Part shown: in pieces, positions 4,414-58,508 of the stretch
Layout: every line of letters starts with the position of its first letter
Numbering within the stretch: the stretch's first letter is position 1
Source of the DNA: Alphaproteobacteria bacterium
GTDB lineage: Bacteria > Pseudomonadota > Alphaproteobacteria > Rs-D84
Length of the DNA stretch: 64,000 nt
Assembly: GCA_017524525.1 (NCBI GenBank)
Contig: JAFXVM010000005.1
Location: 1-64,000, forward strand
Direction of reading: 5' to 3'
The notes under the pieces: generated by a model
The model's input: the letters and a program-made list of their open reading frames with translations, nothing else
Told to the model about the DNA's origin: nothing
The model's database searches: none
Made by a program: the position numbers and the translations under genes

Positions 4414-6795
4414 TTAATCAGCAGAAACTGTTGCATGAGTATAGTCTATGTGGCACTGATTGTTTTCCATATGACCGCCCAGCGCCATCTGACACATATC
4501 AGTATACCAAATATCGTTAAGCGTACAAGTATCAGTGTCATTAACATATCCCATACCCAATAATACTTCACACGATGCATTGCTCGAAGCATCAACACAC
4601 CAACCAACTTCAGCCAAATTGAAATCGTTTATTTGATTTATGTTTGTGATTTCAACACCGTAATATTTTTTATAAAAACTCTGTTTCAAAGTGGCTATAT
4701 TTGGATTAGATATCTCGTTTGCAGAAACCCACTTTCCTTTAATTTCCTCATCATCTTCGCAGCCAGCCGTAAACGCGATTCCCAATTCATCATAGATGCT
4801 TTTAATAACCTGATTCATCGTATCAAGATTAAATGCAGTCGCATCACCTTGGATAGTTCTAGACGCATCGTTGTCTACCAAATCTTTCGCACAAAATGTA
4901 TTCATACGCAAATCCATAGCAGCACGCAATTCAGATTTTGGCATTGTAGCACACCCCATAGGATAAACTATATCAGCATCAGAACCAATTTTTGGATCAC
5001 ATAATTCGTGTGCATATTTTGTTAACGCAACTTCGCACCCTTCGGCAACCTTTGCAGCATCAACGGTATCAACAAATGTTAACAATGCCTTTAAACCACA
5101 TTTCTTTTCGCCACCGGCATCTTCTAATTTTTTCGTATTATCATCATATTTGCACCCGTTTGGGTCACCATAAAGCGCTGCACATGCTTGAACTCTGTCA
5201 TAACACATACCACGCGCAGTCGCCGCAGCAATAGCACCCGTTGAACTGATTTCTGTAGAATCTATCCCTTTTAATGCGCCAGTTTGAGTGTCATAACATT
5301 CTTTGATTGTCGTCACACAAGAATCTTTAATCTGTTGAATTCTTTCGTCTTGAGCCTGAGCAATTTGAATTAACGCGGAACGTTTAAATTCGTACCACAC
5401 CGTGTCCGCTATATCACGACAAGAATTCAAAGCAGTTTCAGCAAAAACACGTTTCCCATCAAGATATTTATTAAAATCAGCATTGCCCCCCAACACATCA
5501 GCAGAACCATTTAAAACAATCAATTTGTTTAATCCAAACAATGCCTGACTAAATATAGGTTCTCCGGTGGTCACATTGATGTATTGACCCGTATAATCCA
5601 TACATTTTTCATAATTTTCACCACACGTCACAGGTTGTCTCATGGCTTTTTCTACATTAGCCAAACATTCATTTACATCCGCAGAATTATGTGAACGATA
5701 TTCTTCAAGTCGCGCATCCCGTAAATATTTTTCAGCCGTTCTAATTGTATCTTCAACAGAAGCCTTTTTGGCGTTTATATTTTTTTCATACGCATTACAA
5801 TCTTGGCTAATTAATATAGAATAAGAACTGCGTGCCAAATTAAACATAGCATCACTGCCACAGGCTTCGCGTGTTATTTCCGCACATTGTTTTGTGACAT
5901 TGTTATAAAGTGCCTTGCCTTCTAATTCTGCCAAATTGGTTGTGCTGTCGCCACCAAAAACAGAAGATGAATCACCACCCCAAATATCATCACTGCCACC
6001 AAAACCGCTAAAATCTAATATGCCCAACGAATTTAATCCGGTGTTTTGTTTTTGAATATTTTGTTTGCCTGATAATACACTGCTGATACTATCTAACAGT
6101 CTCTGTGATGCAGACGTGTCTTTTTTTATTGCTGCTTCCCCAGCGGTTGCAGTATACATCGCGCTAACTTCAGCAGCAGTTTTATCAACAGCATTCAAAT
6201 TATTGTTTTGAAATTCAGTCAACATTTTCAATGCAGTGTCCAATCTGTCTGATGTATCGCGAAAATCTTGGAATCTATCGCTGCAATAGCATCTTCTGTA
6301 AGTATCGTTGGCATTAGCACAAAATTGATCCATGCATGTAGCATATGCATCACGACAAGCAGCATAACCGGTACCAATCTTTGTCACATCATTAAACACA
6401 GCCGTTGCACGCGCCATCCCTGCACGAGATCCGGTATTTGTTGTCTTCTTTACAGGAACAGCAGAACGAACCACACCACCATTATTCGCAGCACGAGATT
6501 TAACACCATTACTTACGACCGAACGCGCACCACGAGCCTTAACATCCTGAACAGTTGCAGGACGAGCAGTCACAACGGGGCGTTTTTTACGGTTGTTCGC
6601 TGAAACATTTCGAGCAATAACAGATGTTGCAGATCGTCTTATTTGAGCATTGTTTTGAGATTCTTGAGAATAAGCATTATTGCGAGCACTTACCGCAGAG
6701 CCACGCGGATTTCTTTGTTGCACTGCAAAAACCGCCATCGGCACAAGAATTGCCACCATAGTCGATTTTAAAATCTTTTTAATAGCCCCCGCCAC
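4414..6795 (-). CDS. Large Cys-rich exported protein, paralogue of the protein at 59.7 kb
   Basis: Function unknown. The 793-aa product begins with a signal peptide (basic AIKKILK, then a hydrophobic stretch ending AVFA). Residues 25-130 are a basic, Arg/Ser/Ala/Asn-rich low-complexity region. From about 145 there is a Cys-rich helical region with YAACRDAYATCMDQFC and RRCYCSDR, followed by many spaced Cys residues to the C terminus. The same layout and the CMDQFC...RRCxCS[DE]R signature occur in the 862-aa protein at 59705-62293. The start is GTG at 6795 with AGAGAG upstream. The many Cys pairs suggest a disulfide-stabilised periplasmic or surface protein. It ends convergent with the XRE gene. 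Confidence 0.85.
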   Translation of the reverse strand: MAGAIKKILKSTMVAILVPMAVFAVQQRNPRGSAVSARNNAYSQESQNNAQIRRSATSVIARNVSANNRKKRPVVTARPATVQDVKARGARSVVSNGVKSRAANNGGVVRSAVPVKKTTNTGSRAGMARATAVFNDVTKIGTGYAACRDAYATCMDQFCANANDTYRRCYCSDRFQDFRDTSDRLDTALKMLTEFQNNNLNAVDKTAAEVSAMYTATAGEAAIKKDTSASQRLLDSISSVLSGKQNIQKQNTGLNSLGILDFSGFGGSDDIWGGDSSSVFGGDSTTNLAELEGKALYNNVTKQCAEITREACGSDAMFNLARSSYSILISQDCNAYEKNINAKKASVEDTIRTAEKYLRDARLEEYRSHNSADVNECLANVEKAMRQPVTCGENYEKCMDYTGQYINVTTGEPIFSQALFGLNKLIVLNGSADVLGGNADFNKYLDGKRVFAETALNSCRDIADTVWYEFKRSALIQIAQAQDERIQQIKDSCVTTIKECYDTQTGALKGIDSTEISSTGAIAAATARGMCYDRVQACAALYGDPNGCKYDDNTKKLEDAGGEKKCGLKALLTFVDTVDAAKVAEGCEVALTKYAHELCDPKIGSDADIVYPMGCATMPKSELRAAMDLRMNTFCAKDLVDNDASRTIQGDATAFNLDTMNQVIKSIYDELGIAFTAGCEDDEEIKGKWVSANEISNPNIATLKQSFYKKYYGVEITNINQINDFNLAEVGWCVDASSNASCEVLLGMGYVNDTDTCTLNDIWYTDMCQMALGGHMENNQCHIDYTHATVSAD

Positions 6796-6849: not shown

Positions 6850-7452
6850 TTATTCAATACAACAATTAACAGCATTTTTTACCCATTGTCCCAGTCTTTT
6901 TACACCTGTCGCTTTTTCTTCCTTTTTTTGAACTTTTTTTACATTTTTTTTATCTTCGTGATTTGTCGCACATGCTTCTGCTGCGCCGTCATAGAAAGAC
7001 GGAACAGATTCATGAACGCCATCCAAATCAATTAAATGCATATTTAATCCCCAAAATAACGAATATAAATCATAGGCACGCGTAAACATTTCTATAGCAT
7101 CTTTTTTGCGTCCAGCCCCCATTGCTTTGGTTCCAACTTCGTATAAACGCATAGACGCAGCCAATAAATGTTTTGAAATACACCAAACTTCACCATCTTC
7201 TGGACCAGATTTTTTAACAATACGTTCCATTAATTCTTTGCGCATATTGCGTACAGTGTTGATTAAATCATAAAAGCCTGTTTTTCCTGTCTTTGCACCA
7301 CTAAAGAAAAAATGTTCTTCCAAAGAAACCAAATTCATCAACGCAATAGACAAATCTTGGTCAGAAGACAAATCCAAAGGATTTGCTTTTTTAGCGGCGT
7401 CCAATTTTTCAATCATTTCTTCCATAGATAATTTTTTATCAGTTTTTTTCAT
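6850..7452 (-). CDS. Conserved soluble protein of unknown function, partner of the CPVC membrane protein
   Basis: A 200-aa protein without signal peptide or membrane segment. The N-terminal half is helical (MEEMIEKLDAAKK, then SIALMNLVSLEEHFFF). The centre has GEVWCISKHLLAASMRLYEVG and KKDAIEMFTRAYDLYSLFWGLN, the latter resembling a TPR-like helix pair. The end is Lys-rich (KKNVKKVQKKEEK) followed by CCIE. It lies 18 bases downstream of the membrane-protein gene at 7471-8019, so the two are probably co-transcribed. From memory, similar pairs occur in Patescibacteria/CPR genomes; I could not check this. Function is not assigned. Confidence 0.75.
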   Translation of the reverse strand: MKKTDKKLSMEEMIEKLDAAKKANPLDLSSDQDLSIALMNLVSLEEHFFFSGAKTGKTGFYDLINTVRNMRKELMERIVKKSGPEDGEVWCISKHLLAASMRLYEVGTKAMGAGRKKDAIEMFTRAYDLYSLFWGLNMHLIDLDGVHESVPSFYDGAAEACATNHEDKKNVKKVQKKEEKATGVKRLGQWVKNAVNCCIE

Positions 7453-7470
7453 CTTTTTAACTCCATTAAA

Positions 7471-8019
7471 TTAACACAAAACGATTCCCATTGTTGGAAA
7501 CCATTTAATAATTGCCCAAAACAAACCAGTCATTACCAACAAACCTAAGAATGGCATAACAACCTTTTGAAAAGGGAACAGCGCGTGTCCGCCATTGTTT
7601 TTTTTGATACGCATATACCATAATTCCATTAGAACAAAAGTAATTGAACCCACTAATATGCCCAATAAAAATTGATCTATGCCCCACATACAATTTTCCC
7701 ACCATTGCACGAAAGGATGTCCAAAAGGCACAAAATAAACACTGGCCAGCAACGAACAATACACCAAAATATTTAAACCATACCACAAAGGATTCTTTAC
7801 ATTATGCTTATGCATATAATTTGCAGTCCAACCAATCAAAGATATCGTTAAACCGCCAGCCCAAATACCAGTTAAGATATCTTTAACACCCAGCATACGC
7901 ATACCTTCCAAACCGGCACCGATTGCAATAGTACACACAGGACACACTGCCTGTGCCACAGATTCAAACAAAAACACTGCTGTAAATACTAACAACAAAT
8001 TCAACGATAATTTTTTCAT
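7471..8019 (-). CDS. Membrane protein with CPVC motif after the signal sequence
   Basis: A 182-aa inner-membrane protein of unknown function. A signal-like segment (LLLVFTAVFLFESVAQA) is followed at once by VCPVCTIAIGAGLEG, a CxxC motif on the likely outer side of the membrane, and then four hydrophobic segments at about 47-70, 78-101, 111-137 and 150-172. The CxxC could be a redox or metal site. Such a site would fit a cell that exports many Cys-rich proteins, but that link is speculation. The start at 8019 has GAAGGA upstream. It forms a gene pair with the soluble protein downstream. Confidence 0.75.
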   Translation of the reverse strand: MKKLSLNLLLVFTAVFLFESVAQAVCPVCTIAIGAGLEGMRMLGVKDILTGIWAGGLTISLIGWTANYMHKHNVKNPLWYGLNILVYCSLLASVYFVPFGHPFVQWWENCMWGIDQFLLGILVGSITFVLMELWYMRIKKNNGGHALFPFQKVVMPFLGLLVMTGLFWAIIKWFPTMGIVLC

Positions 8020-15200: not shown

Positions 15201-18200
15201 TTACCATTTTTCCACAGACTTATCATAGGCATTATACAACGTATTTGCATCTTTTTGGACGTGGAATTTCTTTTGTGACCGGCTATTAATCGGCAAATCT
15301 GCATCTTCTTTAAGCAACATATAACTCGTACCCTTAGCGGTTTCAATTCTTATCGCAGGCAAATCGGCTTCTTTTTTGTCATACAGACAGATTTTATCTT
15401 CGCCAGCATGCAACCATTTACCAGATTCACATACAAATTCCCATGTCGCATAGAATACCTTGTCGCCTGTATCATCTGCAGCAACAGATGTCGCACCACA
15501 GCCAGAATATTCACCTGTTTCTTCATTATAACCTGTGCACCAACCGGCAAACTTATAACTGTCATGTGTCACACCTGGGTTGTCTGGTAAAGTTGCGCCT
15601 TCGCCATAGACATAACTTTCCGGCGACAAACCAGTCAATATATTATTTTGATATTTGTATGTAATAGACCATCCGTCTGGTACACACAAAGTATTTTCAG
15701 CGTTCCAATGATAATTTTCTGTACAATTCCATTGAGCAAAGAATGTCAATTTACCATGCTTTCCTCCTGCTATCCAACCAGAAATATCTTCATCCGCGGT
15801 ATCTTTCCAACCAATGAATTCATAACCAGGTTTCGCTACTTTTCTTTCTACATCTGTCTTTGTTGGTAACGAAACATTTTCTACCATCGTATATTTAACT
15901 GGTTCAAGCCCAAAGATTTCGCTTGTGCTGTCCATATATGTGATAGTATACGGGGCAGCCTTTGGAACAGCATAACAATTCACATCGTCCAAGATATTCC
16001 ATTTGTTAACACTGTCACCATCAACATTAAATGTATTGTTATCATATTTGCATTCCCACTTATCAAATTCATAACCATCATCAAAATCGCACCAATCAGC
16101 ACCATTTGTCTTGGTTGCATATGTATATGATTCATCAAAGGCTACTGAATCATTGGCCTTATACTCGTCATCGTTTTCGTTACAATAATATTTTACATTG
16201 TATGTGTATGCTTCCAAATCGGCATAAACCGTCACTGTGCCATTTGTATCAGCGGGCGCTTCACCAGCAGACCATCCAGTAATATAGTTATTATCAACAG
16301 TCTTCCAACCATGGAACACATAACCTGTTTTTGCGTATGTTTCTGGCAGCGACACATTTTCTGTAACCTTGTAAGTATAATAATGTGTATCGAAAGTATC
16401 TATTCTTTGGTTGCCGTCCATGTAAACAATATTAAAGTCTCTTGGTGTTAGTTGTGCATACAAAGTTTTATTACCAGACCAATTCTTTTGTGCAACACGC
16501 ACATTTAACGGTGTTTCACAAGTTTGAACGCCTTCGCACCAACCAAGGAATTTATAACCAGGTACAGAATAATCCATCAAACTTACATCTTCACCATAAG
16601 AATACGTTGCGCTGCCAACCAAATTCGCGTCTTCATCGTCGCCACGCGTCACCGTATCTCTATAGTTTATTGAATAAGATTCTGGTTCATACTTACAATA
16701 ATAATCTTCCCCGTTATAGTTAATAAGAGCTTTATTTCTGTAATAAAGTTTGCCTGGTTCCTGTGTGATATATCCAAATTGTTCTGCACACGGTCTATAG
16801 CAATCACCCATTGATGTTGCATCGTCATCAGCATGTGGATAGTTTGTTGGACACGGATAACAATTATTACCAACTGTATATTCTGTATCTGAACAGCCAT
16901 CTCTCAAATAAGCATACACTACTTGATCTTGTGCCCTCTGCGGTGTTTGTGTCACCTTGTTTGCTGGCACAAAGTCGCTTCTTTCACAAACATCATTATT
17001 ACAATTATACCATCCAAAGAACCTATAGCCATCAAACTGCGGATTTGTTGGATATGTTTCAGGATGTCCTGGTCTAAATGTTGTTGGTGTCAAAGTACTT
17101 GTATCACGACTTTCTCCCTGTGGTGTTATCGCTACATAGGTAATACTAAACGGCACTTCGCTCATATCTATTATCGCTTTGCAATATTTACCACCTGCTG
17201 GTATTTCAAACGGAAGCGTCCGTGCACCGTTAAGCGGATATTGTTCTCCCACAGTAGATAATTCACTATGACCATCCCAGCATCTCCATCCCCAGAATAC
17301 GCCTTTGTCTTCTTCTGTTCTGTTACAAGATTCTTCATCACCGCTTTCCTCTGGGCTTTGAACGATTTCGCCAATTTCGCCATACTTTGTATATTCCTGG
17401 TTGTTACAATAGAAAGTCACATATTCTGCAGGTTCCCACTTTGCCCACAAAGTGAAATCACCCGTACGCCCAGCTGGCACATAAGTCACTGCTTCACCAG
17501 AATAGTTTGCATTATCATACCAACCCTTAAAGTTGTAATGATCTTTCTTAGGCTCTTTTAATATTTGCATGTTTCTCACTTCAGTATCATTAACATCTTC
17601 AATAGTATACGTACTTGGGTTGGTTTCGCCGTTTCGCAACGCACCACCGTCCATTTCATAGGTTATACGCCATACGATTGGTTCACAATTATCTGGACTT
17701 TCTTCAGTGTATCCAAACTGACAAGGGTTCCATTTTGCATACAAATTGATTGTGCCACCTTCTGGTTTATTTGGCAGGCTAGTTACTTTTTGAGTAAAGC
17801 CACTATCCAAATACCATCCTTCAAAAGAATATGTTGTTTCTGTTGGTCTTGGCACCATACGAACGAGTTTTCCGGTGGTATTAAGACTATTTCTTTCTGC
17901 CCAAGTATATGATGTTTTGTTTGGATTTTCCGTTGCACCATCTGGCCACATACCATGTCCGTTATCATTATACACAATTTGATACGTATAAACACATGTA
18001 TTGCTGTCTTGATAATGTTTGCCACTAATCTCTTTTGCTTGAGGTTTTTGTTCACACTTTTTATAGCATTTCTGTACTTCCATATCAAACAGAGGAAACG
18101 CAGCAGAGCAGGTTCTAACATCTGCGTAAAGTTTCACATCGCCATAAGTTGGTTCTACTGTTTCTCCTAAACCTATGGTACGTCTAGCATAAGGCACCAC

Positions 18201-21200
18201 AGGATTGCTGCCCAAATTACTCTTTTGATAATACCACCCAAGGAATACACCAGTTGGTATTTCAATAGTTTGCGTTGACGTATTTTGCGCATAATATGTC
18301 TTTGTTCCATAGGTGTATTTTGACGGTGTCAAACCAGTCAATTCTTGTTCTTGGTTATTGGCATCAATATAATAATATTTAATCTGATATTTCTTTGCTG
18401 CAAAACGTGCCCAGAATTCCAAATCACCTGTTGTTCCTTGGGCCACAGTCTGTGTTTGCGAACAACTCGCATTATTTTCATCAAAATCAACATCAGCCGT
18501 ACACCACCCAAGGAATTCATATCCTGTTTTGGTTGGATTATTTAACGTGAATGTTTCTGTATTAATAGTATATGTTGTCGGGTTTTGCGGTGACACTGTT
18601 CCATTGTCTAAATGGTATATTATTCTATATTCGTCTTCACCCCAGTCCGCTGTACATGTAACTGTTCTAGCATCATCAGTGTTCGGCGCATCTGGCATAA
18701 GGAAAGTCGCGGTTCCATTGACACCTTTTAATCCTACACCATTGTCACAATTCCACTTTTTGATATCGTATCCATAGCGCACACACTTCGCTTCGCCATT
18801 TTCAACATTTGGTTTCACTGTCACACGTTCACCATACAAATATTCATTTTCATCAGTTGGTGGTGTACCTTCTGCGTCATTACCACAGCTATATACAACC
18901 GTATATTTATTATCTGTCCAATTTGCCGTACAAGTTGTTGTATCATCGTCCAAAGTAATTAGATCCTCAGCACCATATGTTTCTCCTTTGCAAGCCCATG
19001 TGCCAGCAAAAGTTTTTCCAGTCACAGCACAACTTCCAGCACCACCAGCTACCGTGGTTGTATAAGGATACACAACAGACACTGAAGCAGGGGCATTACC
19101 GGTCGCATCATCACCACATTCATATTGCAAGGTTCTTGTAACACCTTCACAAACCGCAGTACAGTTCAAATCAGCATTGAAATTATAATTTTCAATACTA
19201 CCTTCGTCTTCATAGAAATTTGATTTGACACTATTGCTGTTGGCACCACCAACTGAACAATTCCACCCAGCAAACTCTGTATATTGTGGACATGCACATA
19301 CTTTATTTACCGGCGCAAATTGATAACTGTCACCAGAAATAACCCCTATAAAGAAATCTTTATATTTTTGGTCTGCTGGTCCACCAGCAACAGCCGTACC
19401 ACCATCACAGTCAAAGTTTACATGATATTCAGGTTCAACACATTTTTCTTTGGCAGAGAACAAGCTGTCAAGGAACCGATTCTTGTTTAGCATTGATTGT
19501 GTTGTTTCTGTGGCACACGATGATGCACAATCTCTTTCACACAAATCATATGTATTATAAGAGTTACCTGTTTCAACAAAATTTGTATTGCGTACATGAT
19601 TCATAGCACTGTTTTCTGCCTTATAACCAACGGCTTTACATTCGCAACTATATTCACTTGAATTGGAAACACTTGTTTTTGATTGTACACACTGTGATAT
19701 CCCCTTTACATAACCTTGGTTTTCATACCATAACAACCAATTGTTTGCTACAAATTCACTATAAGTTATATTTAAAGTCCCATCAGTATGGTCTTTGCTA
19801 TCCTGTGCTTTATAACTAGTATATGATTGACGTTTCAAAGACTTCAAAGGATTTGCGCCAAAAACTTCACCTTCAGCACAACCTTTTTGCGTCATGTTTG
19901 CTAACAATGTAATATCACGCAAATCAAAATCTTCCGCTGTTGCATTAATCGTATAATTAAGCTGTGCAGATGTTCCCACTGGACAACTTAATGTCGTTCC
20001 CGACTCTTCTACATCTTCAATTTCGCACCAACCAGCAAACGTATAATCACCCTCTGGATTCACAGCTGCAACGCTAATAATATCTGTAATGTTGTATGTT
20101 GCAGGATGCGACTTACCCGTTGTTTCACGGAATGAGGTTATAGCATCACCTTCTTCATCAACATATGTGATGTTGTATTCTATTGGAACACATTGATCAT
20201 GGTTAGTATTATTCCAATTATAACCTTTTGCAGCACAATTCCATATTGCCGTACATTCGACATTACCCGCAGGCATTGTGATTTCGTCGCCTGCATCTTT
20301 GTTTCCTAATTCGTTATCACACTCCCAATTTTGGAAAACAAAACCTGTGTCTGGCGATATACTTACTTCTGTATTAGATTTTACAGCATAAGTAGACTTA
20401 TATTCAATATTCGCATCTTCGTAATTTAGAGCATTTTCCGCAGCATGGTCACCAGGTTTATATGTCACAGAATATTTCAGTTTGCTCCACACAGCAGAAC
20501 ATTTAACACCATTTGCATTATGCATCGAGAATTGGTCACCAAAATTAAATATATGTTCAGCATTTGCTTCGTCACCATCTACACCATTCTCACGAATAGT
20601 AAGGCCAGGGCAAGACCAACCTTGGAAGTCATATCCCGCCACCCCACAAGTTTCGCCGTCACCGTTTAAAGTAGCCTGACCATCCATATCAACAGATTGT
20701 GCATTTGGTGTGGAACCCGACGACATACTAGTGTCATCTGGCACATTACAATCATATGTGATATTAATCTTGTTTGGTGTATATATCGCATATACTTCCA
20801 GATTATTAGTACTTGTCCACAGTATTTCACCAGAGAAATTAGCAACTGTCGCATCTGGCTCCGTGCTCCAACCAACAAAGGTATACCCACCCGCAGCATA
20901 GATGTTTGGATCAGCCGTTGCAACACCACCTTGCAAAACCGTGTAATTTTCACCGTACGTTGCACCACCAATCCCTGTATCAGCATTATACTGATCAACG
21001 TAATCTTGAACTCCGTCCGCAGCATTGGCACCCCTGTGATATGTGACCTTGTAATGCTTTGGCGTCCATTGGGCAGTGCAGATGACATTGCTATCATAAC
21101 TGTATGTACCTGTTGCGTGTTCCGCAAAATAAATTTTTTCATCAGCATCCGCAGGCAAAGTCGGTTCACCTGGCAAACCTGGGCAAGACCATCCTGCAAA

Positions 21201-22724
21201 ATCATAACCATCTAAGTTACAAGCATTGTCACTAAGTGTATAGCTGCCATCCGTATATACCGTTGTATCTGCTATCACCGTGTTATCTGTAGCCGTAATA
21301 TATTCTTCTCCGTCAAAGAAGGTCTTTTCACCACATTCGTACGAAATCGTATGGTCATCAGGTGTATATATTGCATACAAAGTCAACCCGGCATCCGTTG
21401 CCCATGCACTTTGTGACACACCAGCAGAATATGTTGTTCCACTATCATCTGCCATAGTATTCCAATGGTCAAACGTATAACCCGCATCAGCAGTAATACC
21501 TGTCTCGTTCAAAGTTGCGGTTGTCCAATTTTGACCAAAAGTCAAAGCGTTTGCCGCAACATATGGATCTGGATCAGCAGTACCATGTGCACCCGACCAA
21601 TAGTTAATATTATATTTACTTGTTTCCCAATCGCCATAACATGTGACACCGTTTGCATTGTGAATGTACACCGTAGTCCCATTTGAGATAGGCAAAGTTC
21701 TGCCTTCTGTTAATGTATATGCAGTATCTGTCGAATCGCTTAAACCACTTGTACATTTCCAACCATTAAATGTATACCCCGGCAAAGTACAACTTGAATT
21801 AAGCACCCCAGAAGCACCCATGTTTATTGTCTGGCTATCCGGGCTAGGTCCTGTTCTGTCCGCCATCGTAGATGCATCTTGTGGATAATTGCAATCGAAT
21901 CTAATAGTAACTGGATTTGAAACATACACGGCATACAAGGTTAAATCGCTAAGCCCTGTCCAAGCAGATTGTTGTGCATTTGCCACATAACTTGTTCCCG
22001 TACCATCAGGAGATGTATTCCAACCATTAAAAGTATACCCAGACTGCGCTTCAACATGTGCCGCCGTTGCAGATTGCGTTGTCCACACAGCATCATATAC
22101 AGCACCACCGACACTTGTACCCGGTCCAAACACAGTCGGCGCATTGTAACCAGAAGCATAAGCACCACCATTTGCCGTATTCGCATCATAAGTCACACTA
22201 TACTGATTTGGCATCCACTGTGCAGTTAAAGTTACCGTATTTGCAGGGGTTGCACTCGAAGAATCATAACCATAACTCGCCAATGTTCCACCAGTATAAT
22301 CACCGTTTGGCAAAGAAGATTGACTTCCTTGGTATAAAACATAAGTAGCAGGAGAAGCTGGCAAATCGCCATTTGTCAAATTAACAGGAGATTCCCAACC
22401 TGTAAAATGATAACCTGGTGCAGAAAAATCGCAATTCTGCAAACTAATATTAATATCATCAAATGTTACAGTTTGCGAATTTGTATTTCCCGATACAGAA
22501 CTTGTTCCACCAGTAGTTCCACCGTCATAGGCGATAATATACTGATTCGCTTCCCATTGGGCTTTGTAAGCAACTCTATCACCAGGCTCCACATTGTTAA
22601 TAGTAGCACCAGAACAATCTGCACTTTGGTCTTCTGCATCTATTGTATAGCCGACACTCTCGGCGACAACAGTCGCCGAAAACAGCACAAATGCCATAAA
22701 AAATGTCAGCAATCTTTTATACAT
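15201..22724 (-). CDS. Giant secreted InlB-B repeat protein (2507 aa)
   Basis: Last and largest gene of a five-gene tandem array. A signal peptide ends near ATVVA. The body is about 23 copies of a 65-80 residue beta-grasp-like unit with the InlB-B / Listeria-Bacteroides core: an I-x-Y strand, then GYxFxGW, then a LYAxW or CTAxW end. Examples are GYTFNGWNTSPDG, GYDFAGWSCPG and HYNFKGWYDNAN. One CxC-rich module (module A, DNA about 19510-19780) and shorter CPxxY...C..C stretches interrupt the array. The last 75 residues (from about KWLHAGEDKICL to the end) are repeat-free and unlike the siblings. There is no LPXTG or autotransporter barrel. The start at 22724 has only a weak ribosome-binding site. 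Likely a surface or secreted adhesin-like fibre; this role is inference. Confidence 0.88.
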   Translation of the reverse strand: MYKRLLTFFMAFVLFSATVVAESVGYTIDAEDQSADCSGATINNVEPGDRVAYKAQWEANQYIIAYDGGTTGGTSSVSGNTNSQTVTFDDINISLQNCDFSAPGYHFTGWESPVNLTNGDLPASPATYVLYQGSQSSLPNGDYTGGTLASYGYDSSSATPANTVTLTAQWMPNQYSVTYDANTANGGAYASGYNAPTVFGPGTSVGGAVYDAVWTTQSATAAHVEAQSGYTFNGWNTSPDGTGTSYVANAQQSAWTGLSDLTLYAVYVSNPVTIRFDCNYPQDASTMADRTGPSPDSQTINMGASGVLNSSCTLPGYTFNGWKCTSGLSDSTDTAYTLTEGRTLPISNGTTVYIHNANGVTCYGDWETSKYNINYWSGAHGTADPDPYVAANALTFGQNWTTATLNETGITADAGYTFDHWNTMADDSGTTYSAGVSQSAWATDAGLTLYAIYTPDDHTISYECGEKTFFDGEEYITATDNTVIADTTVYTDGSYTLSDNACNLDGYDFAGWSCPGLPGEPTLPADADEKIYFAEHATGTYSYDSNVICTAQWTPKHYKVTYHRGANAADGVQDYVDQYNADTGIGGATYGENYTVLQGGVATADPNIYAAGGYTFVGWSTEPDATVANFSGEILWTSTNNLEVYAIYTPNKINITYDCNVPDDTSMSSGSTPNAQSVDMDGQATLNGDGETCGVAGYDFQGWSCPGLTIRENGVDGDEANAEHIFNFGDQFSMHNANGVKCSAVWSKLKYSVTYKPGDHAAENALNYEDANIEYKSTYAVKSNTEVSISPDTGFVFQNWECDNELGNKDAGDEITMPAGNVECTAIWNCAAKGYNWNNTNHDQCVPIEYNITYVDEEGDAITSFRETTGKSHPATYNITDIISVAAVNPEGDYTFAGWCEIEDVEESGTTLSCPVGTSAQLNYTINATAEDFDLRDITLLANMTQKGCAEGEVFGANPLKSLKRQSYTSYKAQDSKDHTDGTLNITYSEFVANNWLLWYENQGYVKGISQCVQSKTSVSNSSEYSCECKAVGYKAENSAMNHVRNTNFVETGNSYNTYDLCERDCASSCATETTQSMLNKNRFLDSLFSAKEKCVEPEYHVNFDCDGGTAVAGGPADQKYKDFFIGVISGDSYQFAPVNKVCACPQYTEFAGWNCSVGGANSNSVKSNFYEDEGSIENYNFNADLNCTAVCEGVTRTLQYECGDDATGNAPASVSVVYPYTTTVAGGAGSCAVTGKTFAGTWACKGETYGAEDLITLDDDTTTCTANWTDNKYTVVYSCGNDAEGTPPTDENEYLYGERVTVKPNVENGEAKCVRYGYDIKKWNCDNGVGLKGVNGTATFLMPDAPNTDDARTVTCTADWGEDEYRIIYHLDNGTVSPQNPTTYTINTETFTLNNPTKTGYEFLGWCTADVDFDENNASCSQTQTVAQGTTGDLEFWARFAAKKYQIKYYYIDANNQEQELTGLTPSKYTYGTKTYYAQNTSTQTIEIPTGVFLGWYYQKSNLGSNPVVPYARRTIGLGETVEPTYGDVKLYADVRTCSAAFPLFDMEVQKCYKKCEQKPQAKEISGKHYQDSNTCVYTYQIVYNDNGHGMWPDGATENPNKTSYTWAERNSLNTTGKLVRMVPRPTETTYSFEGWYLDSGFTQKVTSLPNKPEGGTINLYAKWNPCQFGYTEESPDNCEPIVWRITYEMDGGALRNGETNPSTYTIEDVNDTEVRNMQILKEPKKDHYNFKGWYDNANYSGEAVTYVPAGRTGDFTLWAKWEPAEYVTFYCNNQEYTKYGEIGEIVQSPEESGDEESCNRTEEDKGVFWGWRCWDGHSELSTVGEQYPLNGARTLPFEIPAGGKYCKAIIDMSEVPFSITYVAITPQGESRDTSTLTPTTFRPGHPETYPTNPQFDGYRFFGWYNCNNDVCERSDFVPANKVTQTPQRAQDQVVYAYLRDGCSDTEYTVGNNCYPCPTNYPHADDDATSMGDCYRPCAEQFGYITQEPGKLYYRNKALINYNGEDYYCKYEPESYSINYRDTVTRGDDEDANLVGSATYSYGEDVSLMDYSVPGYKFLGWCEGVQTCETPLNVRVAQKNWSGNKTLYAQLTPRDFNIVYMDGNQRIDTFDTHYYTYKVTENVSLPETYAKTGYVFHGWKTVDNNYITGWSAGEAPADTNGTVTVYADLEAYTYNVKYYCNENDDEYKANDSVAFDESYTYATKTNGADWCDFDDGYEFDKWECKYDNNTFNVDGDSVNKWNILDDVNCYAVPKAAPYTITYMDSTSEIFGLEPVKYTMVENVSLPTKTDVERKVAKPGYEFIGWKDTADEDISGWIAGGKHGKLTFFAQWNCTENYHWNAENTLCVPDGWSITYKYQNNILTGLSPESYVYGEGATLPDNPGVTHDSYKFAGWCTGYNEETGEYSGCGATSVAADDTGDKVFYATWEFVCESGKWLHAGEDKICLYDKKEADLPAIRIETAKGTSYMLLKEDADLPINSRSQKKFHVQKDANTLYNAYDKSVEKW

Positions 22725-22763
22725 TTATTTTTTTATTCTTACTTTTTTTATATCTCCCAATTA

Positions 22764-23984
22764 CTATTGAATATTCCATCCTTTGAATGTATAACCTGTC
22801 TTTGTTGGGTGCGGAATAGTGGTTATGCTGCCGACATTCCATTCACAGGTTGACTGTCCACCAGAAACCTCATCTTCGCCATCATACCATTCCAAATAGA
22901 CAGGATCTGCATTCCATTGTGCATCACATGTTATCGTTAAATTATTCGTTGTCGCTGCATACGTTCCACTGCCATTAGTAATAGCATTATTTGCCCAAGC
23001 ATAGACGGTTGTCCCCGCTACACCAGTTGCCACAGTATGAGTACAAGACCATCCTGTAAACGTATAACCATTCTTAGTACAATTAGCATCAACTATCGAT
23101 TTTCCTTCAAGTGAGAAAGGCTGATCATACTCTAATGCTGTTGTTGCTGATATAATTCCTGTCGCACCTGTACCACAAGTATATGTGACCGTTCCTGTAT
23201 ATGCAGTCCATTTTGCATGCACTGTTCTATCGACCACAACACACGTACCTGTCGCACTCGTTTCATATGCAGAATCTGTATACCAACCGTCAAATGTATA
23301 ACCGGTCAACGTCAAGTTTGGCAAAGGACTGTCAACACAATCCCACTGAGCAAACCACGTGGTAGGGGTACATGTTGTTCCATTACCATTTGGATCAGCA
23401 ACAATACTTGACGCTTCTGTATTACCAGCTGTTGTTATATAGTATGGCGTATAAGGTGAGGTTCCACCAATATAAGCTGTTCCATTTGTTGGAGCACTAT
23501 AATAACCCTTTAACGCTCTGCTACCACTTTTTGTTGTTGCAGGAGCTGTCACAGGCCAAGAACCAACCTCGGACAACGTATGTGAACCTGGCAAATTAGC
23601 CGTATAGGTTGTTGTCACAGTTGCACCAGTAGGCAGAGTTAAATTCCCAGGAGTAGTATTCAACCCATAATCATTTGTCGTCATTTTGTTTGAACTATTA
23701 GTTCTATCAGTTGACGAACGATACGCACCATCCGCATATCTTGCATACAAAGTTAACGAAGATTGTGTCGCAGCACCATTGGCAAGATTTGAATCCAATG
23801 TAATCTCGCATTCAAGCGGACTAAAATCAGCGACATAAGTGACAGTATCACCAGGATTTACATTGTTAATAGTATCACCAGAACAATCAGCCTCATTTTG
23901 ATTTGGCCCGATTACTGGATCTGCAAAAGCAGGGCAGACTGCCGCCACAGCCAGCATACTCGTTAAAAACAGTCTTATACGCAT
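22764..23984 (-). CDS. Secreted InlB-B repeat protein (406 aa)
   Basis: A short member of the array. The signal peptide ends VCPAFA. The mature N terminus (EADCSGDTINNVNPGDTVTY) is close to that of the giant protein (SADCSGATINNVEPGDRVAY). A long middle region contains LYARYADGAYRSS and RALKGYYSAP, matched by LYTRYDEGAYLES and RAFEGYWDAA in the 433-aa sibling. Then three GYTFxGW repeats follow, and the protein stops just after the last one (GYTFKGWNIQ). AAGGAG precedes the ATG. The gap to the giant gene is 39 bases, so co-transcription is likely. No enzyme motif is seen. Confidence 0.87.
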   Translation of the reverse strand: MRIRLFLTSMLAVAAVCPAFADPVIGPNQNEADCSGDTINNVNPGDTVTYVADFSPLECEITLDSNLANGAATQSSLTLYARYADGAYRSSTDRTNSSNKMTTNDYGLNTTPGNLTLPTGATVTTTYTANLPGSHTLSEVGSWPVTAPATTKSGSRALKGYYSAPTNGTAYIGGTSPYTPYYITTAGNTEASSIVADPNGNGTTCTPTTWFAQWDCVDSPLPNLTLTGYTFDGWYTDSAYETSATGTCVVVDRTVHAKWTAYTGTVTYTCGTGATGIISATTALEYDQPFSLEGKSIVDANCTKNGYTFTGWSCTHTVATGVAGTTVYAWANNAITNGSGTYAATTNNLTITCDAQWNADPVYLEWYDGEDEVSGGQSTCEWNVGSITTIPHPTKTGYTFKGWNIQ

Positions 23985-24064
23985 GATTTTTCTCCTTCAT
24001 TTTTCTCATTTTAGAATATTTTTGTTTTCTATGTCAACCAAGATTCCATCCTTTTTTACTTGAC

Positions 24065-27000
24065 CTATGGCGACGCCACATTGTTTCCAACCAAAGCGGT
24101 TCTAAACCCAACATCATAACCACTCATTGAATTAGTGCACGCTCTGTCACACGCAACCTTGCATCCGGCTGTATTACCATACGAATACCCATTGTGCACC
24201 CATATTGTAGGCATAACATCACATTGTTCAGCATTATTTGACGTATAACTTGTCAATCTGCACCAACAGTTTACCCCTTCAGTCATTTCAATAACGCTTG
24301 CAGTTGAACCTGGAGTGCCACTTGTGGTAGAGCAAAACGCTTCACCCAACACTTTGTCACCAGAATTCCAAGATGCCCCCCATTGTCCTGGCTGTGTTAT
24401 CCCATATGTTGAAGCAGTTGCTCCTCCCCACGAATGCACAATATTATTGTCCAATCCTCTTCCTGCCCAAGCATTAGCCCTTTCACTAACAATTGTATCA
24501 GGAAGCCAACATTTCAAAACCCACCCAGAAAAAGAATATCCTGTTTTTGTCGGTTGAAGAATATTTTCTATAGTTCCACCAAATTCGCAGCTATCTGGTG
24601 TATTAATTTCGGTACCGCCATTTGAATCCCAAACTAAATTTACGTTATGTGGTATCCATACTGCATAAAGGTCTATATCGCCAAAATCTGTTGTGGTAAT
24701 AGTATACCCATTTTCGGTACCAGCATAATTATAGCATAATACAGTGCCACGGCACCAACCAGCAAACGTATAATTGGTTCGTGACGGCACACCAACCGTT
24801 GCCCCAGTTCCATAAGTATATGTAGACGGATTATCATTCTGGTTCGCCCAAGACACACCATCTGCCACATCTGTATTGTAATAGTTTATATTATATGTAT
24901 TTGGCGTCCATTGAGCATATAAATCAACATCACCAGTTTGTGTCGTTGTAACCGTGTAACCACTTACATTATTAGCATAATCATTACAATTATCTGTACC
25001 CACACACCAACCAGCGAACGTATAATTGGTTCGTAACGGCACACCAATCGTTGCACCTGTTCCATAAGTATATGTAGATGGATTATCATTCTGGTTCGCC
25101 CAAGACATACCATCTGCCACATCTGTATTGTGATAGTTTATATTATATGTATTTGGCGTCCATTTTGCATACAAAGTCACCGTATCACTCGACGTCCATG
25201 TGTTATTCGGGAATGTATAAGATACGCCTTCGGCATACGATGTTCCACCAGTCCCAGCGGCATTTGTATACCATGTATCAAAATCATAATCTGTTTTTGT
25301 AAAGCCATTGTTTGCAAGCGTACAGGTTGGATAATTTGTTACACCGCTTCCAGTATAATTATATTGATCTTGAGTACAAGCAGTATCCAGGGTATTCCCG
25401 CCCGTATTCGTATTGCCATCATACGAAATTTTAACATCTCTTTTATAAACTCCCAAATATCGATCAGGATCTGTTATACCAAGCGACATACTGTGCGCAC
25501 TTGAATTTGAATCTACTATAGTCATACTTCCATTTACGTACCAGCCTTGTGGTTCCCAGCCGTTTGTTGCAGAAACAAAAGTCGGCATATTTGGAGCACC
25601 AACAACAGTAACACCAGATGTACTAGCATCAGTATTTTTATAACTTTGATGAACACTATCACTAATTTGATTTGAAGAACTAGCACGATAAACAAATCTA
25701 ATGTTTCTCCCCCATTTACCATACAATGTCACATCAGCATCACATTCAACACTGTTAATCACAGTATCATATCTAAGCGCATCATTAGTCGTCACAGACG
25801 GTGTCCAACCATCAAAATCCCATCCATACGCAGAATCAACAGGCATAGTAGCACCTGGGAAAGTTGTAGTCGTAGCAGGTATCGTTGCCGCACTTACATC
25901 TACAGTTGTCCCATGGTTACAAGTCCGTGTTCCCATTACTGTACTGCCAGTTTTGAATGTTATCGTGTGTGTTGTTAGACTGCAACTGCCAGCCGTTACA
26001 TTTGGGTTACCAGCAGTTGCCGTGGCAGGACCACCAGACGCACCATTATAATTATAACCTGTATCACAGACAAAATTGTAATCGCATGTATTATTTACAA
26101 CAGACGGATTATTTGCCGAACAACTCACAACATGGCTTCCCTGTTGTATTGTGCATGAACACTCTGCCCATTGTGCCGTCACTGTTGTATCTGCATCGCA
26201 CGTAAATGTTGATGTATCCCAACCAGTAAATACATAACCAGTTTTAGTTAACGAATTAGCAGAACCAAGTAGCATATGCATATCTCCCCAATCAGGGAAG
26301 GTCACTGTATCCCCATCATTACATGTAAATGTAGAACCAGACACTGTTTCTGCGGTTCCACCATTATTTACAATTATATCCCCACTTCCATCATCACGAA
26401 CAACCGTTATTGTATGAGTAATGGGTGAACAATCAGGTGCCTGTACAGTTCCAACACCTGCGGCACTCGCCGGAACAGTTCCACCAGACGCATTATTATA
26501 GTTATAATGCGTATCACATGTAAAATCGTAACTGCATGTATTATTAGAAACCGATGCTGTGTTTCCACATGTTGAATGATTTCCATCCGTACATGTACAC
26601 TGCGCCCATTGTGCCGTCACTGTTGTATCTGCATCACACGTAAATGTTGATGTATCCCAACCAGTAAACACATAACCCGTTTTAGTTAACGAATTATCAG
26701 CACCCCAACCAGGGAAAGTCACCGTATCACCTTCATTACATGTAAATGTAGTACTATTAGCAGATACTGTTTCTAAGGTTCCGCCATTGTTTACAACTAT
26801 CGCTCCGTTTCCGCCATCACGATTAACTGTTATTGTATGAGTAATCGGTGTCCACTGGGCAGTGCAAGTCACAGCAGAATTATTCCCAGACACTTGATAG
26901 GTAAAAGACGGGGCATTCGCGGCAGTCCCATCAAAAGAATAAGTATACCCACCTTGCGGTGCTGTACCAGCATCAAGATTATGAGAACAATTCCAACCAA

Positions 27001-28081
27001 TAAAATGGTAGCCCGCATAAGCACAACTATTTGCTGCTAAATCATATCCCCCACCAAATTCAACAGACTGTGGCGAAGGGACGGTTCCTGTTTGTGTCGT
27101 AGAACCAGGCTGTTGCCCACAATTATAGGTAATAGTACCAGCATCTGGGACACACGAATCGTTGGCAGCATTGAATAACTGTCTTGCAAAACCAGGATGG
27201 TCTGCGTTATTTGACACATATTCCGCACAACCATCCGCACAATCTTGACGACAACTTCCAGGAGTAATATACATACGTTGTTTCACCCATAATTGATCCG
27301 ATGGATTTATTGTTGTGTTATTGTTATCAGTGTAACTGGTTAACTTACACCAACATACATCAGCCTGTTGGGGATTTGCACCTGCTTGTATCTGTGCTTC
27401 TGTTGCCGGTTCATTACCATTATATGTACTACATAGTGCGCTGCCACCAAGCGTAAATTCAGGGTTTTCATCACCAAAAAACACTTCCCAAGTATTAGTA
27501 TTAGAATCATAATTTGAACTTGTCCCATCGGTTGTAATATTCAAATCAAAATCAAAATTTTGACGATGATAACCAGTATCACAACTCCATTTCGCATAAT
27601 ACGCACGGTCTCCCGTTGAACCAGTTGTAATTGTTTTTGTCTGTGAACAATTGGTTGTCAAAGCCGCATCTTCACACCAACCAGCAAAAACATAACCTGT
27701 TTTCGTTGGCGTGCTTATCGTGAACGTCTGTGTTTCAACATTATACGTACTTGGGTTCGTAGGGTTATTAGAAGACCACGAACCGCCGTTCAAATGATAT
27801 TCTATGCCATAATCTAGCAGGTCACATGTTGCTGTGTACGAGGTTTCAGACGTCTGTGTTGTTGTCGGATAAGTATAATACCCATTTTGACAAGACCAGT
27901 TATATATACAATTCTCAGCGCCCGTAGGGTCTTTAACAGGGGTTCCATAGCAACCAGAGGCCCCATTTCCATTAGTACAATTACAGGATATATCACCAAA
28001 CGAAACCGATGTCACAAAGCACAACACCATGGCAACGAATGCCATTTTCAAAATACGCTGAAAACTGCGAAAAATCGACAC
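24065..28081 (-). CDS. Secreted InlB-B repeat / Cys-module protein (1338 aa)
   Basis: A mosaic exported protein. After the signal sequence (ending SVSFG) come an N-terminal Cys module (SCNCTNGNGASGC...), about ten InlB-B repeats (GYVFAGWCEDA, GYHFIGWNCSH, GYVFTGWDTST twice, NYTFAGWC twice), two copies of module B and two copies of module A; the second module A copy forms the C terminus (CWCRLTSYT, then CKVACDRAC). I chose GTG at 28081. An ATG at 28108 is in frame, but it coincides with the predicted transcription start, and its codons 4-6 are the AGGAAGGA ribosome-binding site. The segment after GTG (IFRSFQR) matches the start of the 877-aa sibling (NFRSFRR). Internal DNA duplications show recent expansion. 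Confidence 0.85.
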   Translation of the reverse strand: MSIFRSFQRILKMAFVAMVLCFVTSVSFGDISCNCTNGNGASGCYGTPVKDPTGAENCIYNWSCQNGYYTYPTTTQTSETSYTATCDLLDYGIEYHLNGGSWSSNNPTNPSTYNVETQTFTISTPTKTGYVFAGWCEDAALTTNCSQTKTITTGSTGDRAYYAKWSCDTGYHRQNFDFDLNITTDGTSSNYDSNTNTWEVFFGDENPEFTLGGSALCSTYNGNEPATEAQIQAGANPQQADVCWCKLTSYTDNNNTTINPSDQLWVKQRMYITPGSCRQDCADGCAEYVSNNADHPGFARQLFNAANDSCVPDAGTITYNCGQQPGSTTQTGTVPSPQSVEFGGGYDLAANSCAYAGYHFIGWNCSHNLDAGTAPQGGYTYSFDGTAANAPSFTYQVSGNNSAVTCTAQWTPITHTITVNRDGGNGAIVVNNGGTLETVSANSTTFTCNEGDTVTFPGWGADNSLTKTGYVFTGWDTSTFTCDADTTVTAQWAQCTCTDGNHSTCGNTASVSNNTCSYDFTCDTHYNYNNASGGTVPASAAGVGTVQAPDCSPITHTITVVRDDGSGDIIVNNGGTAETVSGSTFTCNDGDTVTFPDWGDMHMLLGSANSLTKTGYVFTGWDTSTFTCDADTTVTAQWAECSCTIQQGSHVVSCSANNPSVVNNTCDYNFVCDTGYNYNGASGGPATATAGNPNVTAGSCSLTTHTITFKTGSTVMGTRTCNHGTTVDVSAATIPATTTTFPGATMPVDSAYGWDFDGWTPSVTTNDALRYDTVINSVECDADVTLYGKWGRNIRFVYRASSSNQISDSVHQSYKNTDASTSGVTVVGAPNMPTFVSATNGWEPQGWYVNGSMTIVDSNSSAHSMSLGITDPDRYLGVYKRDVKISYDGNTNTGGNTLDTACTQDQYNYTGSGVTNYPTCTLANNGFTKTDYDFDTWYTNAAGTGGTSYAEGVSYTFPNNTWTSSDTVTLYAKWTPNTYNINYHNTDVADGMSWANQNDNPSTYTYGTGATIGVPLRTNYTFAGWCVGTDNCNDYANNVSGYTVTTTQTGDVDLYAQWTPNTYNINYYNTDVADGVSWANQNDNPSTYTYGTGATVGVPSRTNYTFAGWCRGTVLCYNYAGTENGYTITTTDFGDIDLYAVWIPHNVNLVWDSNGGTEINTPDSCEFGGTIENILQPTKTGYSFSGWVLKCWLPDTIVSERANAWAGRGLDNNIVHSWGGATASTYGITQPGQWGASWNSGDKVLGEAFCSTTSGTPGSTASVIEMTEGVNCWCRLTSYTSNNAEQCDVMPTIWVHNGYSYGNTAGCKVACDRACTNSMSGYDVGFRTALVGNNVASP
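24753..25164 (-). repeat. Recent in-frame 252-bp tandem duplication in the 1338-aa gene
   Basis: Positions 24753-24912 and 25005-25164 are nearly identical over 160 bases and are offset by exactly 252 bases (84 codons). Both encode a TNYTFAGWC repeat preceded by NDNPSTYTYGTGAT. Few differences are seen, mostly single bases, so the event looks recent. Confidence 0.85.
25979..26842 (-). repeat. Composite repeat unit in the 1338-aa gene, two copies
   Basis: A unit of about 423 bases occurs at 26429-26842 and 25979-26422. Each encodes THTITV, NNGG, a GYVFTGWDTSTFTCDADTTV repeat and then module B. The downstream copy carries a nine-residue insertion (DMHMLLGSA). A third, more diverged copy lies in the 877-aa gene near 29858-30200. 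Confidence 0.8.
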
Positions 28082-28112
28082 TTTCCTGTTATCCTTCCTA
28101 TTATTCATACAA

Positions 28113-28142
28113 AGTGTAGAACAATTTTAGGCATTGCGTCAA
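28113..28142 (-). promoter_or_regulatory. Internal promoter before the 1338-aa gene
   Basis: TTGACG, 18 bases, TACACT on the minus strand. Transcription would begin near 28106, just ahead of the AGGAAGG ribosome-binding site at 28093-28099, which supports the GTG start at 28081. Confidence 0.5.
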
Positions 28143-28179
28143 TCAAAAAGACATTAAATTTATAAAAAAAATACCACAC

Positions 28180-28223
28180 AAAAAAATCAGCGCCAATCGC
28201 ACAATTTATCATACGATTGACGC
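28180..28223 (-). terminator. Terminator between the 433-aa and 1338-aa genes
   Basis: A ten-base stem with one mismatch (28190-28199 and 28214-28223) followed on the minus strand by ATTTTTTT. It lies 31 bases after the 433-aa stop codon and divides the array into at least two transcription units. Confidence 0.7.
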
Positions 28224-28253
28224 CGAAAACGCCAATAATTTTTCGTCTTAATT

Positions 28254-29555
28254 TTATTGACGTTGTGTGGTCACTGTCCATCCATGGAATGTATAACCAG
28301 TTCTTTGGTCTGGTTGTACCAATGGTCCCATTGTACCGCCGTACACACAAGTATTTGGGTTTTCGCCAGTACCATTAAATGTTTCCGTTCCTGTTTCGTT
28401 CAAATACCACACCAAATTCACAGAAGCGTTCTGTGTCCATCGAGCATAACAAGTCACACTAACAGCTGTTGGGTAATTTGGCGCCGGTACTTTGAAGGTG
28501 CCAGTAGCGCCCGCTTGATAATGGGTAAAGGTAGCGGCGTTTCCCACTTGATAAGGGGTAGAATTGTGCGTACCTGTTTCAAGATTGTAATCACAATCCC
28601 ATCCGCCAAAACTATATTCACCCGCGGTATCACCCGATAACGCACACGTATTGGCTGTGCTTGCAAGTTGAAAACCATCGTCGTATTCAACAGAATTTGG
28701 ACCTGGGGCTGACCCGCCAACTGTGATATTGTTTGCTGGCGCTGTACCACAATTATACATGATTGTTCCAGTATGTGGTGTCCATTTTGCATACAACGTC
28801 TCGTTAGAAGTTGTGCAAGTTGTATTCACCGGACTGTCATTAGTCCCAAGCGTGGACGATGTATACCAACCATCGAAATTATAACCTGTTATTTCTGGAT
28901 CCGCCGGGAACGTTCTTGTTGCGCATCCCCACTTAGCATACCAAGTTGTAGACGGGCATGTAGTTCCGCTGGTATACGCGATACTTTTTGCTGCATTCGT
29001 TCCCGCAGTACTTATGATATAATACGGCGAAGTCGAATTAATATACTGCACAGTAGGATTGGTTGCAGCATCCCAATACCCTTCAAACGCCCTGGTCGGT
29101 GTAGAGTTTGAAATCGCAGTTAAAGAATACGCCTGGTTTGTTACAGGATTAGTTGGAACATTTGTTGAAATATCCCATGTCGTTGTCACAGTTGGTCCCG
29201 TTGGTATACCACTGGCACTCAAACCATTTGTGGCTGGTCCCATTAAATTTGTTCTAGCAGATTCAAGATAAGCACCTTCGTCATATCTTGTATACAAAGT
29301 TTGCAAACTGCTGGCAGTATGACTTCCACCATTAGCACTCAAACTGATTGAACATTCATCAGCCACCCAATTTGGCGCATAATAAACTGGACCAGTAGTA
29401 TTTTCGGTATTGTTATAAGTTAATGTATCGCCAGAACAGGGTTCAGAAGTACTGTCATAAGCGATAGTTCCGTTACCATTGGTATCAGTCGTAGCAAGTG
29501 CAGGGCACGCCACCACCATCACCAACATGCTTGTTAAAAAGATTTTACTTTTCAT
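28254..29555 (-). CDS. Secreted InlB-B repeat protein (433 aa)
   Basis: Second gene of the array, closest to the 406-aa protein. The signal peptide MKSKIFLTSMLVMVVACPALA matches the LFLTSMLAVAAVCPAFA of the 406-aa sibling. The mature part carries EPCSGDTLTY, LYTRYDEGAYLES and RAFEGYWDAA, then GYNFDGWYT, EYSFGGWDC and a final GYTFHGWTVTTQRQ. The last ten residues are almost the same as those of the 877-aa protein, and their DNA is nearly identical too. AAAGGA lies six bases before the ATG. A terminator follows. No catalytic motif is visible; a surface or secreted role is inferred. Confidence 0.87.
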   Translation of the reverse strand: MKSKIFLTSMLVMVVACPALATTDTNGNGTIAYDSTSEPCSGDTLTYNNTENTTGPVYYAPNWVADECSISLSANGGSHTASSLQTLYTRYDEGAYLESARTNLMGPATNGLSASGIPTGPTVTTTWDISTNVPTNPVTNQAYSLTAISNSTPTRAFEGYWDAATNPTVQYINSTSPYYIISTAGTNAAKSIAYTSGTTCPSTTWYAKWGCATRTFPADPEITGYNFDGWYTSSTLGTNDSPVNTTCTTSNETLYAKWTPHTGTIMYNCGTAPANNITVGGSAPGPNSVEYDDGFQLASTANTCALSGDTAGEYSFGGWDCDYNLETGTHNSTPYQVGNAATFTHYQAGATGTFKVPAPNYPTAVSVTCYARWTQNASVNLVWYLNETGTETFNGTGENPNTCVYGGTMGPLVQPDQRTGYTFHGWTVTTQRQ

Positions 29556-29635
29556 TTTTCATCCTTTCCTTATGTTTTGTTATTTTGTTTTCTTCATTCT
29601 TTATTTATCTCAACTTCGTTCCAGCAATCAATTTG

Positions 29636-34197: not shown

Positions 34198-34211
34198 TTT
34201 AATTCCATTTA

Positions 34212-53389: not shown

Positions 53390-53414
53390 AATAAAAAATC
53401 CCTTGTTTTTATAC

Positions 53415-53444
53415 TTGTTTTTATATTCAATATAATTGTATCAT
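53415..53444 (+). promoter_or_regulatory. Possible promoter of the prepilin-peptidase-like operon
   Basis: TTGTTT, 18 bases, TATCAT, about 30 bases before the start codon at 53475, in the divergent gap from gcrA. Confidence 0.45.
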
Positions 53445-53474
53445 AAAAACGAATCGAAAGGCAAGAGAGAAAAC

Positions 53475-55862: not shown

Positions 55863-55882
55863 AAACCAGTGAGGATGCGTTT

Positions 55883-58441: not shown

Positions 58442-58453
58442 CATTTTATCTCA

Positions 58454-58483
58454 TTGCGTTTTTTATAAAAAATATGCTATAAT
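58454..58483 (+). promoter_or_regulatory. Promoter of the 105-aa exported protein
   Basis: TTGCGT, 18 bases, TATAAT, 26 bases before the start codon at 58509. Confidence 0.6.
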
Positions 58484-58508
58484 AAAATCAAGAAAGCAGG
58501 GGGCGAAT

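Follow-up and report, generated by a model that had tools for sequence, protein, structure and literature searches.

Disulfides in the chlamydial OmcB complex, which is cross-linked between proteins, are thought to give the envelope its rigidity, and Chlamydia trachomatis has both DsbA and DsbB. In twin-CX9C (CHCH) hairpins and GLG1-type Cys-rich repeats, disulfides that join two CXnC motifs staple one helix to another. TraN is likewise Cys-rich. F-type TraN is a large exported mating-pair protein with a role in outer-membrane contact, made by a cell that bears a type IV secretion system (T4SS) (PMC9246713).

The proteins that we compare with these systems come from a Candidatus Enterousia-like lineage of the GTDB order Rs-D84, and homologous contigs include those of Candidatus Enterousia excrementavium and Ca. 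E. scatequi as well as many rumen and gut MAGs. Bacteria of this order are gut inhabitants of farm animals; their genomes are of about 1 Mb or less, and they appear to rely on other cells (PMC12306168). Enterousia itself, also placed in Rs-D84, has genomes mostly below 1 Mb and no respiratory chain; its members are probably obligate symbionts or parasites and encode 'hypothetical membrane-bound proteins' of unknown use (PMC12306168). The window (the whole stretch of DNA analysed, 64,000 nucleotides) covers the opening 64 kb of contig C15, one of the 18 contigs that make up a 965-kb genome. Its relevant features are as follows:

4414-6795, minus strand: P0002, an exported Cys-rich protein of 793 aa with a GTG start and 28 Cys counted from the first domain Cys
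6724-6795, minus strand: signal-peptide-like N terminus of P0002, assigned by eye
6373-6720, minus strand: basic low-complexity linker of P0002, 116 aa with 22 K+R, 3 D+E and 0 Cys
4999-6372, minus strand: Cys domain core of P0002, used in the nine-paralogue profile and in AlphaFold2 modelling
6274-6336, minus strand: signature CMDQFC...RRCYCSDR of P0002, read in translation
6850-7452, minus strand: 200-aa partner of the CPVC protein; its homologues adjoin CPVC homologues in other small-genome alphaproteobacteria
7471-8019, minus strand: CPVC protein, conserved beside P0002; small and multi-transmembrane (by eye), with CPVC after an N-terminal hydrophobic segment
59705-62293, plus strand: P0001, an exported Cys-rich protein of 862 aa whose Cys domain holds 32 Cys
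59705-59770, plus strand: signal-peptide-like N terminus of P0001, assigned by eye
59771-60040, plus strand: basic low-complexity linker of P0001, 87 aa counted, with 18 K+R, 4 D+E and 0 Cys
60041-61339, plus strand: Cys domain core of P0001, containing the 16-Cys scaffold common to nine paralogue groups
60077-60139, plus strand: signature CMDQFC...RRCSCSER of P0001, read in translation
61340-62290, plus strand: C-terminal Cys region of P0001, kept among orthologues, with paired losses at residues 778/807 and 819/838
62290-63408, minus strand: lpxB, the convergent neighbour of P0001 with conserved synteny, used as a cytosolic control for Cys parity

A sequence-only reading of this DNA had described two Cys-rich exported paralogues 53 kb apart, leaving the strand of the first unsaid. 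Both open reading frames lie at the coordinates it gave, approximately 52.9 kb apart, with P0001 on the plus strand; because the plus strand of 4414-6795 contains many stops, this region codes for protein on the minus strand only. The shared CMDQFC...RRCxCS[DE]R signature is exact in both proteins, CGxNYxKCxDY is present as CGANYHKCLDY and CGENYEKCMDY, and the signal peptides (by eye) and basic linkers that it described are recovered with the composition listed above. P0001 and P0002 share 31% identity over 491 aligned columns with a BLASTP E value of 2e-64, and their likeness is therefore not due to chance.

Like the chlamydial complex, these would be large, exported, Cys-rich envelope proteins of a dependent bacterium with a reduced genome, and the kind itself, a Cys-rich exported protein stabilised by disulfides in a host-dependent cell of reduced genome, would resemble the chlamydial case. 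In contrast to that complex, our proteins have no sequence-family match (no OmcB/OmcA-type family appears among the Pfam and NCBIfam matches), are modelled as all-helical and have even Cys numbers in most groups, a parity that implies internal bonds; furthermore, DsbB was not found in 26 genomes here. The proteins share with TraN their size, their export and a T4SS-bearing cell. However, no TraN family is among the Pfam and NCBIfam matches, and approximately ten copies are fixed away from recognised T4SS genes. No F-type transfer operon surrounds the family genes, whose neighbours are lpxB and mraZ-, infA-, clpX-, dnaQ- and rpmA-like genes (the last five named by eye), and the VirB4 of this order matches VirB4-type models better than TraC-F-type ones. 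Compared with twin-CX9C and GLG1-type proteins, the spacing here is CX6C, there is no Pfam match, and the proteins are far larger, bacterial, exported and equipped with a basic linker.

The description of P0001 and P0002 as a duplicated pair proved to be an undercount, as the same genome encodes at least ten members in fixed orthologue groups. We searched the genome with each protein and afterwards with a profile of the members so obtained, which placed two on C15, four on C14 (including one truncated where the contig stops), one on C13, two on C5 (one divergent) and one on C3. Protein length runs from 591 aa (the truncated member) to 963 aa, and each Cys domain contains 24 to 42 Cys. All ten have a signal-peptide-like start (by eye), followed by the linker and then the Cys domain; their C-terminal parts vary.

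We compared 26 members taken from the relatives G003, G010 and G021 with the ten paralogues; every one has a single clear best match, and for most of them the neighbours are unchanged. At the P0001 orthologue loci (n = 80), lpxB is present in 72, lies within 300 bases in 70 and is on the opposite strand in 70. The P0002 orthologues of three relatives adjoin the CPVC membrane protein, accompanied in two of the three by the 200-aa protein, adjacent or one gene off. Other paralogues adjoin mraZ-, infA/clpX- or dnaQ/rpmA-like genes (names by eye). The paralogues are thus old, syntenic orthologue groups, and their one-to-one orthology and conserved neighbours point to a stable toolkit rather than a variable surface family. 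We rejected antigenic variation and recent tandem expansion on the basis of the one-to-one best paralogues of these 26 members and their mostly conserved neighbours; the three relatives likewise carry the tandem pair found on C14.

Several other genes lie near members of the family or elsewhere in the genome. Upstream of P0001, four consecutive exported proteins of 105 to 852 aa with no family assigned occupy 53953-58826 (plus strand), and a gene similar to the last of these is found near the P0001 orthologue of G010. This exported cluster adjoins a GcrA-like regulator and a prepilin-peptidase-like protein (52790-53936, by eye). At 33047-34703 (minus strand) are three genes resembling TolA/TolR/TolQ or ExbBD-type energy-coupling proteins (by eye). 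Outside the window, the genome has its own VirB4-type T4SS ATPase (L110:8829-11249, G000:C12), and contig C5 encodes several multi-transmembrane proteins without a family match, a number of which have a CXXC close to their N terminus.

The taxonomic range of the family agrees with the earlier suggestion that it is lineage-specific. The nine-paralogue profile matches 39 of 40 relatives and, with at most 8 candidates scored per genome, 200 of the 201 genomes of order Rs-D84. Across the class, 5 of 385 genomes match, and because all five fall within the order, the count outside it is 0/380. Only two of 398 phylum genomes match, both from the same genus (the window's own and one other), leaving 0 of the remaining 396. 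Genomes of the window's genus contain 6 to 21 matching segments, and those of other families of the order 0 to 12, mostly weak; these numbers count segments rather than genes, the window's genome having 15 segments for ten genes.

Searches of Pfam-A and NCBIfam with P0001, P0002 and the nine profile members, the family-level Pfam scan being made with the nine-member paralogue alignment, returned weak scattered matches, none over a curated cut-off and none common to two members. A match of P0002 to a PHROGs family whose function is unknown (E 0.0093) was judged to be chance. With no convincing match in Pfam, NCBIfam, PHROG or PDB, the earlier statement that the proteins have no recognised domain stands. 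Lineage restriction holds as well, and so does conservation in close relatives, such that the earlier reading passes the test it had set for itself; of that interpretation, the pair is what gives way, to a family of at least ten. Its description of the proteins as important is borne out indirectly, by their near-universal presence in the order, their synteny and their retention in reduced genomes. Literature searches on Enterousia, Rs-D84 and Cys-rich or disulfide proteins gave no sign of this family among the results. The sequence family, the CX6C helical design, the basic linker, the fixed set of about ten and the missing oxidase appear to be new.

The Cys residues of these proteins follow a strict parity. 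We aligned P0001 with 72 orthologues (73 rows, with two very long orthologues, L094 and L103, and six partial ones left out) and found 30 columns with at least 97% Cys among rows with a letter, 24 of them Cys in 73/73. The mature Cys number is even in all 73 proteins, ranging from 24 to 38, and changes at least 17 times on a FastTree tree of these rows only; because every count is even, each change is an even step. In the cytosolic control LpxB, encoded at the same loci, the Cys number is even in 40 of 70 rows. Additional Cys arise two at a time: 14 rows share one such pair, and several more pairs are each confined to one or two rows. Cys are also lost in twos, at residues 778/807 and 819/838, and a single row is mixed.

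The other orthologue groups, with one contig-truncated paralogue left out, comprise 44 even rows and 4 odd rows. The four odd rows make up the entire L010_7448 group (29, 39, 29 and 29 Cys), in which one Cys may stay unpaired within the protein and be available for bonding to a second chain. Its member in the window's genome is:

L010:7448-9736 (G000:C14): member of the L010_7448 group, the only group odd in all four rows

Across 46 rows from nine groups (the divergent C5 group left out), 16 Cys are invariant. Positions 342 and 418 are each Cys in 18 of the 46 rows, in full agreement row by row, as are residues 471 and 490 in 9 rows each. Some rows in the parity, pairing and linker counts are duplicates or close relatives (for example, P0002 is the same as L015, and L026 as the L114 member), so these counts are not independent and the tree count is the fairer measure. 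CX6C accounts for 68 of 300 consecutive Cys spacings, compared with 10.7 (s.d. 3.1, largest 21) in 500 shuffles, an approximately 6-fold enrichment; residue 342 forms CX6C with both 335 and 349, and 418 with 425. Together, these sequence patterns strongly imply that the Cys domains are disulfide-bonded, and we regard our statements on disulfides and on the family as strong.

Cys content also varies across the window as a whole. Its 12 exported proteins contain 3.30% Cys and its 23 cytosolic proteins 0.91% (classes assigned by eye), with even numbers in 9 of the 12 exported. Five adjacent exported proteins with Listeria-Bacteroides (InlB B-type) repeats, 406 to 2507 aa in length, lie at 15201-32269 (minus strand) and are themselves Cys-rich, with 74 Cys in the longest.

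Ahead of the Cys domain, the linker has a consistent charge and composition. In 121 of 123 rows, the 60 residues preceding the domain carry a net positive charge (mean over the rows +5.9), and 82% of the linker segment is A, V, S, T, N, R, K or G; the Cys domain carries a mean charge of -2.7 per 60 residues. Judged by this composition, the basic unstructured linker could bind peptidoglycan or lipid A. AlphaFold2 models of both domain cores are all-helical, with a pLDDT of 54.9 and pTM of 0.35 for P0001, and a pLDDT of 67.3 and pTM of 0.44 for P0002, whose conserved blocks reach 88-93. Neither core model has a Foldseek match in the PDB at an E value of 0.001 or better. Among middling VIA-align rows, the best Z score was 6.5, in the range of common helical arrangements, and the lack of a family in that comparison does not speak for a new fold. 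With pTM values of just 0.35 and 0.44, the stapled-hairpin geometry is not seen directly in the models; stapled antiparallel helices would instead be suggested by the way the Cys are spaced (CX6C), by the predicted helicity and by the co-variation of residues 342 and 418.

We propose that these proteins form an order-specific, non-redundant set of exported, linker-tethered, disulfide-stapled envelope proteins with a structural or tethering role. Each member would be made with a signal peptide and then exported. Its basic, nearly Cys-free linker would probably lie against anionic peptidoglycan or lipid A and lead into the acidic helical domain. There, the Cys would be joined in disulfides, with part of the domain forming antiparallel helices whose CX6C motifs staple helix pairs, and the bonds would probably be introduced by a membrane-anchored, DsbA-like CPYC thioredoxin. 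Most likely, the set would serve as structural elements or tethers within an envelope layer that is rigid and resists proteases, in a gut bacterium that depends on its host. Homology, copy number, restriction to the order, synteny, Cys parity and pairing, linker charge and the helical model are computed. The earlier term 'envelope component' would follow from the signal for export together with the evidence for disulfides and the basic character of the linker, and we infer the cell location, the disulfide chemistry in the cell, the connectivity and the structural role. Because location and role are among these, we give the reading as a whole about an even chance. The L010_7448 group, odd in 4/4 rows, the count of 0/26 genomes for DsbB and VKOR and the low pTM values of the models count against it.

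The main rival is use as surface adhesins or receptors, with the Cys domain as binding head, the linker as stalk and different partner or host targets for each paralogue. We consider this possible, if on the unlikely side: the host-dependent lifestyle proposed for these bacteria (PMC12306168), the varied C-terminal parts of the paralogues and the other large exported Cys-rich repeat proteins of the window would all suit it, whereas the conserved, mostly syntenic orthologue groups are unlike the quickly diversifying sets usual for adhesins, and no known adhesin domain is present. The proteins might also be accessory parts or cargo of the order's T4SS, comparable to TraN of the F plasmid, a Cys-rich protein by which mating pairs are stabilised. 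VirB4 is indeed present in 22 of 26 genomes (TIGR00929 match at 1.8e-112, though under the cut-off), and the C5 paralogue lies approximately 3 kb from multi-transmembrane genes that look VirB6-like by eye. However, those genes match no family, and other paralogues adjoin unrelated genes or each other. No member has a Pfam T4SS match, the sole NCBIfam match being to TraW at an E value of 0.097, and in three families of the order (f2, f4 and f6) most genomes encode VirB4, yet copies of the Cys-rich family are few. We therefore judge a role in secretion to be improbable.

Exported metal- or thiol-storage or redox-buffer proteins, in which the Cys serve as metal ligands or sacrificial thiols, would account for the very high Cys content (26-47 in full-length homologues) and for the lack of a recognised disulfide oxidase. 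Paired metal ligands could also produce even counts, although exported proteins show this less commonly. One-to-one bonding better fits a Cys number that stays strictly even across at least 17 changes, with distant Cys gained and lost in pairs, and the dominant spacing is CX6C, not the CXXC expected of most metal sites. This explanation seems very improbable to us.

The structural or tethering reading leaves the question of how the bonds are made. Neither DsbB nor VKOR was found in any of the 26 genomes, and hence there is no recognised source of oxidising power, while a DsbA-like Thioredoxin_4 protein is present in 24 of 26. The window's genome encodes its own:

L011:8047-8865 (G000:C13): DsbA-like thioredoxin, 272 aa, N-terminally hydrophobic (membrane-anchored), with CPYC, approximately 5 kb from the C13 paralogue

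The genes at 6850-8019 (minus strand) beside P0002 form a conserved two-gene module, a CPVC/CAVC multi-transmembrane protein and a partner of about 190-200 aa, that also occurs outside the order. Homologues of the CPVC protein occur in 17 of 289 class genomes, of which 14 lie outside the order, and a homologue of the 200-aa partner is often adjacent. At one locus, L168, a small CLFC thioredoxin-like protein is a further neighbour. In the homologues inspected from outside the order, the motif is CAVC wherever visible. As G028, of the same order, lacks a match, the CPVC protein is not universal. Speculatively, it could be the missing thiol-redox partner. More broadly, Rs-D84 may carry out heavy extracytoplasmic oxidative folding without DsbB, VKOR or a respiratory chain (PMC12306168), its DsbA-like thioredoxin being recharged by an unrecognised membrane oxidase, for which the CPVC protein is a candidate, with the ten-member family as a main client and one reason that the pathway is kept. 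We offer this proposal tentatively, as one that is unlikely to hold.

These findings raise a sharp question, namely what oxidises approximately 310 Cys (the sum over ten Cys domains) in a fermenting anaerobe in which neither DsbB nor VKOR was found. Because Cys come and go in pairs, specific bonds can be predicted and put to the test by expression in a heterologous host. An order-specific stapled set would provide a handle on how these bacteria hold their envelope together or make contact with their partners.
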